A DNA stretch of 64,000 nt from [Pantoea] beijingensis (GTDB taxonomy: Bacteria; Pseudomonadota; Gammaproteobacteria; Enterobacterales; Enterobacteriaceae). The position numbers and the translations under genes were made by a program. Positions within the stretch are counted from its first letter, which is position 1. Each line of letters opens with the position of its first letter. A model generated the notes under the pieces. The model was not told where the DNA came from. It saw nothing but the letters and a program-made list of their open reading frames with translations, and ran no database searches. Location: NCBI RefSeq assembly GCF_022647505.1, contig NZ_CP071409.1, forward strand, positions 3,844,001-3,908,000, in the 5' to 3' direction. Of this stretch, positions 34,225 to 35,209 are shown in pieces.

Positions 34225-34251
34225 AAAAAAAAACCTGCCAAAATGGCAGGT
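34225..34251 (-). terminator. GlmZ terminator
   Basis: On the minus strand ACCTGCC-ATTTT-GGCAGGT is followed by nine T (34225-34233). It faces the hemY terminator, so both strands are closed within 70 bp. Confidence 0.9.
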
Positions 34252-34332
34252 ATAAAGATCAGATCGGTAAGACAACCGATTGGTACCAGACTCAACGTAA
34301 TGCCCACTTTCCAATAAGGTCCTCTAGCCCTG

Positions 34333-34374
34333 CATACTTCGCGTTCAGTCAACAAACCTGCACTTTGAAGTATG
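34333..34374. repeat. Short palindrome-ended element inside glmZ
   Basis: CATACTTC (34333-34340) and GAAGTATG (34367-34374) bound 42 bp. Read leftward its left part resembles the end of the enterobacterial intergenic repeat (TCATACTTCAAAGTGCAGG versus the motif TCATACTTCAAGTTGCAGG). It lies in the middle stem-loop of GlmZ, between CCAATA and TATTGG, which can still pair, as can the outer TGCCC/GGGCA. Confidence 0.6.
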
Positions 34375-34493
34375 AGAGAAAAACGATATTGGCTGGTCGG
34401 GCAACAAGTACCGTAAATTGGCTCTGCATCATTCCCAATTTTATGAAGCATCAGCAAACATAAGGGGTGGAATGAGCATCTACATATTTAGTA

Positions 34494-34597: not shown

Positions 34598-34710
34598 TGT
34601 CGCTATCATGCTACGGTTAGCCTTTATCATGTCGTCATAAAACGACAGTTAAAAAGACATCTGTAAAAAAAATTATAAAACAAATAGTTATACGTCTCTA
34701 CTTTGAGACA
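34598..34710 (-). promoter_or_regulatory. GlrR (QseF)-like activator sites of glmZ
   Basis: The GlrR motif is TGTC-N10-GACA. A perfect copy lies at 34630-34647, a 7-of-8 copy (CGTC-N10-GACA) at 34693-34710, and a weak one (TGTC-N10-TACG) at 34598-34615. They sit about 120-230 bp upstream of the start, a normal distance for sigma-54 enhancer sites. Confidence 0.6.
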
Positions 34711-34753
34711 CCTTATGTGGTTCAGCTGTATTTCACAGGATTGAGCTTCACTA

Positions 34754-35150
34754 AACTCCAGACGAAAAAAAAACCTGCTTTTTAAAGCAGGTTTCTTAAA
34801 TAGGGTCGCCGAGAGAGGATGAACGCTCTCTGCGAGAGCCGCCCTGCGGGCCGTTGCTGAAGCAACGTTGTCTCGCTGCATTCGGCTCAAACCTCCTTCG
34901 GAGGTTCTCATCCTCTTTGAACTCCAGACGAAAAAAAACCTGCTTTTTAAAGCAGGTTTCTTAAATATGGTCGGCGAGAGAGGATGACCGCTCTCTGCGA
35001 GAGCTGCCCTGCGGGCCGTTGCTGAAGCAACGTTGTCTCGCTGCGCTCGGCTCAAACCTCCTTCGGAGGTTCTCATCCTCTTTGAACTCCAGACGAAAAA
35101 AAACCTGCTTTTTAAAGCAGGTTTCTTAAATATGGTCGGCGAGAGAGGAT
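34754..35150 (-). repeat. 165-bp tandem repeat of tRNA-Pro 3' end and terminator (rtT-like)
   Basis: Three copies of the tRNA-Pro end segment lie 165 bp apart at 34803-34820, 34968-34985 and 35133-35150; the last is the real tRNA. Each is followed (leftward) by a terminator hairpin with eight or nine U (34765-34794, 34931-34959, 35096-35124). Two 100-bp spacers differ at only about five positions. The array resembles the rtT repeats behind E. coli tyrT, which also start with a tRNA 3' end. Spacers can fold into four small hairpins closed by AGAGGATGA/TCATCCTCT. Confidence 0.85.
35096..35124 (-). terminator. Terminator directly behind tRNA-Pro
   Basis: AAACCTGCTTT (35101-35111) pairs with AAAGCAGGTTT (35114-35124); on the minus strand eight T follow. 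It ends the tRNA operon nine bases after the tRNA. The same hairpin recurs at 34931-34959 and 34765-34794. Confidence 0.88.
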
Positions 35151-35209
35151 TCGAACCTCCGACCCACTGGTCCCAAACCAGTTGCGCTACCAAGCTGCGC
35201 TACTCGCCG
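35133..35209 (-). tRNA. proM: tRNA-Pro (UGG)
   Basis: A 77-nt cloverleaf beginning CGGCGAGTAGCGCAGC and ending TCGCCGACCA, with encoded CCA and anticodon TGG in the loop TTTGGGA. The T-loop is GGTTCGAATCC. Last gene of the four-tRNA operon. Confidence 0.97.

Follow-up and report, generated by a model that had tools for sequence, protein, structure and literature searches.

What is the tandem repeat that follows the proline tRNA gene proM in this genome, and did it arise there independently of the repeats known behind other tRNA genes? Tandem Repeats Finder reports a single array in the window (the whole 64-kb stretch of DNA analysed here), at 34754-35150, with a period of 165, 2.4 copies, 96% matches and a score of 743. 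The initial annotation described it as an rtT-like tandem repetition of a tRNA tail, a terminator and a spacer, with three terminators in series, and this description is borne out. There are two units of 165 bp, which differ at 6 of 165 positions, and three identical terminator hairpins of 30 nt each, of which a terminator scan of the window picked up the distal one alone. From the tRNA outward, the features are as follows.

35133..35209, minus strand: tRNA-Pro(UGG), proM, last gene of the argX-hisR-leuT-proM operon (ARAGORN; Rfam tRNA, 65.8 bits; gene names by K-12 order)
35133..35150, minus strand: last 18 nt of tRNA-Pro, the copied segment (sequence)
35098..35127, minus strand: terminator hairpin 1, directly behind the tRNA (inverted repeat)
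34968..35132, minus strand: tRNA-linked repeat unit 1, 165 bp (Tandem Repeats Finder, sequence)
34968..35097, minus strand: RtT RNA 1 (RF00391), 81.1 bits, full model length (Rfam cmscan, alignment)
35063..35081, minus strand: 5' arm of unit 1, AGAGGATGAGAACCTCCGA, antisense to the tRNA-Pro T-arm at 17/19 positions (inverted repeat)
35051..35061, minus strand: unit 1 sense copy of the T-stem 5' strand and T-loop start (read from sequence; class-wide test)
34968..34985, minus strand: tail copy 1, 18/18 identical to the tRNA 3' end (sequence)
34933..34962, minus strand: terminator hairpin 2 (inverted repeat)
34803..34967, minus strand: tRNA-linked repeat unit 2, 165 bp (Tandem Repeats Finder, sequence)
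34803..34932, minus strand: RtT RNA 2 (RF00391), 76.4 bits (Rfam cmscan, alignment)
34898..34916, minus strand: 5' arm of unit 2, identical to the unit 1 arm (inverted repeat)
34803..34820, minus strand: tail copy 2, 16/18 identical to the tRNA 3' end (sequence)
34768..34797, minus strand: terminator hairpin 3, array end (inverted repeat, terminator scan)

Repeats of this plan are the tRNA-linked repeats (TLRs), which stand directly behind a tRNA or rRNA gene; passages of PMC8144298 date their first description to 1978 and state that their last 18-19 bp repeat exactly the 3' end of the tRNA or rRNA before them. In the window, unit 1 begins at the base right after the CCA of tRNA-Pro, and its tail copies the tRNA end exactly, while that of unit 2 does so at just 16 of 18 positions, as the initial annotation had noticed. 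When searched with cmscan against Rfam 15, both spacers match RtT (RF00391) over model positions 1-130, with scores well above the gathering threshold of 45 bits. It is virtually certain that this is a two-unit TLR array of the RtT family. The initial annotation had taken the spacer to be different from that of E. coli rtT and the array to be an independent amplification of a tRNA tail. Nothing apart from the tandem structure speaks for that reading, and we reject it: the RtT match spans the full model length, and RtT matches with E <= 0.001 occur in 33 of 60 genomes of the same bacterial family, one per genus. An unrelated spacer of separate origin has next to no chance of being the right account. 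An assembly error is likewise rejected, because like arrays follow tRNA-Pro in other genomes, named records included, and the host genome is a single contig.

We note that a 188-codon open frame (34627-35193, minus strand) spans part of proM and the whole array, which it can do because 165 bases are 55 codons; in K-12, a small protamine-like gene, tpr, lies inside rttR. A protein reading of the array was rejected, as the frame is not kept among units: 174 unit lengths leave remainders of 0, 1 and 2 modulo 3 in 47, 66 and 61 cases.

The spacer is not an ordinary dispersed repeat in the host genome, where four tRNA loci account for all 7 RtT matches. Behind another tRNA-Pro(UGG), at 116 kb (L001), come three nearly identical units, and one match stands behind tRNA-Lys at each of two loci (34.1 and 32.5 bits, below the cut-off). 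At the 116-kb locus, the start of a further, fourth unit breaks off before any tail. A tail-copy scan around the 79 tRNA matches of this genome found copies at the four RtT loci and none elsewhere except one at a Thr tRNA, with 4/18 mismatches, which we count as chance.

The annotation note for E. coli RtT reads "processed from tyrT transcript". The initial annotation held that E. coli has the structure solely behind tyrT. This view fails, since RefSeq places two RtT units of an E. coli genome behind tRNA-Pro (CGG by ARAGORN), between eptB and dppA, and passages of PMC8144298 count 22 TLRs at ten K-12 loci. By blastn, the window array has matches in 5375 of 5426 genomes of an E. coli collection, matches to the tRNA gene alone counted in. 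K-12 tyrV (L273) has three exact tail copies at 178-bp steps, and tyrT has one at 175. K-12 proM (L271) was searched for tail copies with up to 4 mismatches and has none, which makes the proM position a novelty with respect to K-12 alone. For its kind, the array is an ordinary TLR.

Its likeness to the E. coli TLRs, rtT/rttR of tyrT-tyrV (RF00391) among them, is close: the units stand in tandem behind a tRNA gene, have a tail of 18-19 bp equal to the 3' end of that tRNA and contain an RtT body above the Rfam cut-off. The window array differs in its place behind proM, in its step of 165 bp where the tyrV units have 178, and in that each unit opens with a terminator. The units rrA, rrB and rrF of the E. 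coli rRNA operons also lie between serial terminators and have as their tail the 3' end of the stable RNA that precedes them (passages of PMC8144298). In K-12 rrnB, the same plan is seen behind 5S rRNA, whose tail recurs 168 bases further on, and the body is, by eye, like that of the window units; unlike theirs, the tail comes from 5S rRNA and has no tRNA CCA end. The same passages state that rrA, rrB and rrF bind CsrA and Hfq, and give CsrA-type predictions all <0.01 for 19 tRNA-operon TLRs. The leuZ 3' external transcribed spacer, a sponge RNA, is similar in coming from a tRNA transcript outside the mature tRNA, and differs in that those passages mention no repeated tail for it. Of TLRs, they state that no function was known prior to that paper's own work on the rRNA units, and they record the retraction of an earlier report that tied a tyrT-tyrV unit to a starvation phenotype.

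As the initial annotation had proposed, we looked for arrays after proM in related genomes. All 37 genomes of the host genus match the array query, many over little more than the tRNA. Thirty congeneric loci were retrieved, two without a tRNA, one with tRNA-Pro alone and 27 with leuT-hisR-argX neighbours. At 12 of these 27 proM loci, the window's included, there is at least one unit with no more than 2 tail mismatches; one further locus has a tail copy at 4 mismatches, and at the other 14 the unit search found none within 4 tail mismatches. Named records were represented by 42 stretches from a 37-base exact search of genome contigs, and 11 of the 42 have a unit behind a tRNA-Pro with a tRNA-Leu neighbour: Erwinia oleae, E. 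aphidicola, Cedecea davisae, C. sulfonylureivorans, Pantoea rwandensis, Pantoea sp. IMH, Mixta mediterraneensis, Dryocola boscaweniae, Budvicia diplopodorum, Ewingella americana and Serratia sp. AKBS12, the two Erwinia overlapping the congeneric set. The host genus is probably Erwinia, as one congeneric proM stretch equals the E. oleae record along its full 2294 bases and a second congeneric genome has a proM-unit segment that lies, unchanged, inside the E. rhapontici stretch. The tRNA-Pro(UGG) gene is itself tandemly repeated in 21 of the 27 congeneric proM loci (L200-L228), with four copies in L200 and two in the others, and in some the units lie between the copies.

Beyond the family, the order scan gave RtT matches with E <= 0.001 in 39 of 197 genomes, 27 of which are above the cut-off, and the class scan gave them in 34 of 185, with 12 above it. 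We fetched 80 loci from the family scan and 59 from the order and class scans, three of the 59 being again from the family. Tail copies are present at 78 of the 80 family-scan loci and absent at 2 (within 4 mismatches), and they are present at 44 of the 59 order and class loci and absent at 15 (within 3), a count that includes L160 and L163, which have unlike Ala tail repeats as well. The tRNAs with units behind them are Tyr, Pro (three anticodons), Lys, Ser (four), Arg, Gln (two) and Glu; tail matches at tRNA-Thr and tRNA-Ala, which are chance or unlike, and units over 330 nt were left out. Six of the 59 order and class stretches have no ARAGORN tRNA, some of them stopping at a contig end, and passages of PMC2965389 report rtT-like elements within BIMEs upstream of protein genes, so that placement at tRNA genes only is less clear outside the host genome.

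In all, we gathered 200 distinct arrays, 143 with one unit, 43 with two, 10 with three and 4 with four, and the first-unit tail is exact in 172 of them. One of the 200 is an Arg-TCG artefact from the opposite strand of L176. In the 57 arrays with at least two units, the last tail copies the tRNA less well than the first in 14 cases, better in 1 and equally well in 42 (sign test p = 0.001, which is optimistic because arrays share ancestry). The initial annotation had read the decayed distal tail as growth from the tRNA end; these counts support it, and the decay pattern, as read from sequence, fits growth from, or correction by, the tRNA end.

Some loci depart from the standard plan. Behind tRNA-Ala(GGC) in two genomes of the order (L160 and L163), there are 84-86-nt segments that end in a tail copy, with two of 200 nt in L163; by eye they have no RtT body, and they are possibly another kind of tail repeat. 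Short units of 98-101 nt lie behind or between tRNA-Lys genes at L093, L103, L108, L110, L113 and L114, where a CCCGNAGGG-type hairpin and the tail are kept and a second hairpin is missing in most. At L097, also a tRNA-Lys locus, there are three such units, 94-95 nt long, with the arm and the second hairpin kept and the CCCGNAGGG-type hairpin missing.

A standard unit runs 5' to 3' from an arm, through a short hairpin, the 3' strand of which repeats in sense the T-stem and the beginning of the T-loop, and through the body to the tail; the CCCGNAGGG hairpin of the body is present in 229 of 258 units. Comparison of units with tRNAs shows that the 5' arm is antisense to the T-arm of the unit's own upstream tRNA and tends to fit the local tRNA. 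As RNAalifold gave almost no consensus fold for an alignment of all tRNA classes, we used tail-by-arm matching. The longest exact antisense match between a unit and its own tail is 7.17 at 83 loci, against 5.82 when permuted (0/10000), with a small gain for Lys (5.90 vs 5.38) and a large one for Tyr (8.72 vs 5.49). When one unit was chosen per distinct tail, to blunt shared descent, the 35 tails (the Arg-TCG artefact excluded) gave 12.44 vs 8.42 permuted, with a permutation maximum of 9.66 (0/10000), and the own tRNA was the best match for 19 of the 35 tails and among the three best for 31. The seven-base closing stem was scored in 120 units, that is, 141 minus 16 without the search motif and 5 duplicates. 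It pairs at 5.84 of 7 positions with the own tail and at 4.83 with tails of other classes, the own tail being better in 97 units, tied in 5 and worse in 18. The sense T-stem copy, usable in 102 of the 120 units, agrees with the own tRNA at 4.10 of 5 positions vs 3.53 over 67 loci (0/10000). As a control, 85 flanks of tRNAs without a tail copy average 7.11 vs 11.58 for the 200 arrays, and an antisense score of at least 12 is reached by 113 of 200 arrays vs 9 of 85 control flanks. The eight highest controls listed are at Tyr, Ser, Pro and Lys tRNAs and are possibly decayed units.

Single cases illustrate the match. With the tRNA-Ser tail CCCTTCC, the arm is GGAAGGG in three of four units and AGAAGGG in the fourth; with the tails CCCTCCC and CCCCCCC, the arms are GGGAGGG (2/2) and GGGGGGG (2/2). 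The Gln unit in L185 has the arm GGGGAACAAGGAT, the exact complement of its tail. Over all 258 units, a good arm is present in 186 and none was found in 72. These comparisons indicate that the tRNA-matched arm tends to be a wider feature of the TLR/RtT family. Covariation support for RtT helices is reported in passages of PMC7657543 and PMC8250186, and conserved RNA structure as such is therefore not new. In the part of the RtT/TLR literature that our search covered, with the 1991 and 1999 papers outside that coverage, we did not find locus matching of the arm stated.

What might such units do? The best explanation as a whole, to which we assign a probability of roughly 0.65, is an RtT-family TLR array whose read-through RNAs would fold by pairing of arm and tail and be cut at the tail. 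A unit would be transcribed solely when RNA polymerase fails to stop at the terminator that follows the tRNA; its RNA would take a branched fold closed by a stem of the 5' arm and the tail, and the machinery that makes the tRNA 3' end would then cut behind the tail. The outcome would be low-level RNAs of about 165 nt, in amounts that track tRNA transcription, and the repeated terminators would halt read-through before glmZ. The array could grow and shrink by recombination between the 18-nt tails, and we propose that, as the tail changes along with the tRNA gene, maintenance of the closing stem keeps the arm fitted to the local tRNA. In E. coli, the 3' ends of the proline tRNAs are made by RNase E.

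The three serial terminators and two tails of the window fit the read-through model of the rRNA case. There, according to passages of PMC8144298, read-through produces the unit that lies between T1 and T2; a figure of 87% is cited for the transcripts that T1 stops, and the authors suggest an RNase E cut at the tail. Being drawn by analogy, the read-through and tail-cutting steps could equally well prove right or wrong. As a precedent for the model, Northern signals are reported for two RtT-family RNAs in Actinobacillus in passages of PMC4986893; these place both upstream of tRNA genes, and we count this placement against the model. Folded alone, the window unit pairs its arm with its tail at -51.9 kcal/mol (z -2.5; 4 of 200 shuffles as good). 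When tRNA-Pro and unit 1 were folded together, the minimum was -113.0 kcal/mol vs -101.7 for the native tRNA with a closed unit, in an equilibrium computation that leaves aside co-transcriptional folding and tRNA modification, both of which favour the native tRNA. In the -113.0 fold, the better one by 11.3 kcal/mol, the arm lies on the tRNA T-arm and the tail on the 5' acceptor strand, which pairs with the unit tail at a mean probability of 0.990 and with its own tRNA 3' strand at 0.000. The computed lowest-energy structure thus differs from the assumed one, with the arm paired to the tRNA, and this counts against the model.

With the T-arm of its own tRNA present in it as an inverted copy, the unit allows two exclusive precursor folds. 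A read-through precursor might hold either the native tRNA and a closed unit, or an arm that has seized the T-arm and 3' end, with the tail on the 5' acceptor strand. It is the joint fold that prompts the idea of such a switch, which we consider improbable. If it were true, TLRs would act in cis as antisense elements and hold back the maturation of unterminated tRNA precursors, or, alternatively, would tie sRNA release to tRNA folding, and this would apply to many tRNAs across Gammaproteobacteria.

The matching of arm and tail could also be a mutational by-product, made and maintained by events at the DNA level alone (tandem duplication, gene conversion involving the tRNA gene, template switching at the inverted repeat of the T-arm), with units that do nothing. 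The arms of L196, L186 and L006 copy the tRNA in antisense almost without error and take in the T-loop or the bases that precede the T-arm, as this account would have it, and the antisense T-loop TTCGAA in the arms of L006, L196 and L182 fits a copying mechanism without function. Base pairs in the closing stem point the same way. In 120 units, its five T-stem positions hold 16 G-U vs 20 A-C cells; in the 186 units with a good arm, the T-stem part holds 14 vs 13 and the first acceptor position 1 vs 40. The closing stem has no G-U excess, and therefore no sign there of selection on RNA over DNA pairing; outside it, the outer pair of the CCCGNAGGG hairpin has 38 G-U vs 21 A-C cells, which we count in favour of the read-through model. 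The variation in copy number, from 1 to 4 units per array, and the 14 congeneric proM loci with no unit within 4 tail mismatches also suit units that do nothing, as does a table row of PMC4606813 in which RttR overexpression left biofilm at 97%, the other columns being unmarked. Against these stand the presence of the CCCGNAGGG hairpin in 229 of 258 units, the like body (by eye) behind 5S rRNA in K-12 rrnB and the published covariation of RtT helices. The age of the bodies is a further objection. We compared 72 first units from 26 genomes. For bodies that follow different tRNAs, the likeness is 0.695 within a genome (79 pairs) and 0.699 between genomes (1805 pairs), and 827 of 2000 permutations equal or exceed the observed value. 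Being from one genome thus adds nothing to their likeness, which gives no support to recent exchange between the tRNA loci of one genome, and the likeness is therefore old and kept. For the same tRNA, the values are 0.896 in the same genome (14 pairs) and 0.737 in another genome (658 pairs). Overall, we think it rather unlikely that DNA processes alone suffice.

The array might instead serve mainly to multiply terminators, so that tRNA-operon transcription stays out of glmZ. The GlmZ sRNA gene (34225-34483, minus strand, Rfam 119.9 bits) is on the same strand as the array and starts about 270 bp beyond it, and three identical terminators in series would suit this purpose. Such an insulator leaves the tail copies, matched arms and conserved body unexplained; tRNA-Tyr units such as L040's have, by eye, no terminator hairpin in the spacer, and K-12 proM has no array and has aslB and aslA between it and glmZ. 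Termination as the main role therefore seems very unlikely to us, and we retain the RtT-family array with read-through RNAs as the preferred reading.

The array at proM has two units with a locus-matched tail and arm, and like arrays are present in relatives; by analogy, its RNA steps may follow those of the rRNA units. In itself, the array is one more TLR. The wider picture is that a repeat family described mainly from E. coli occurs in 34 of 185 genomes sampled across the class, with tail and arm tending to suit the local tRNA, and this arm-tail match makes TLR function directly testable by genetics.
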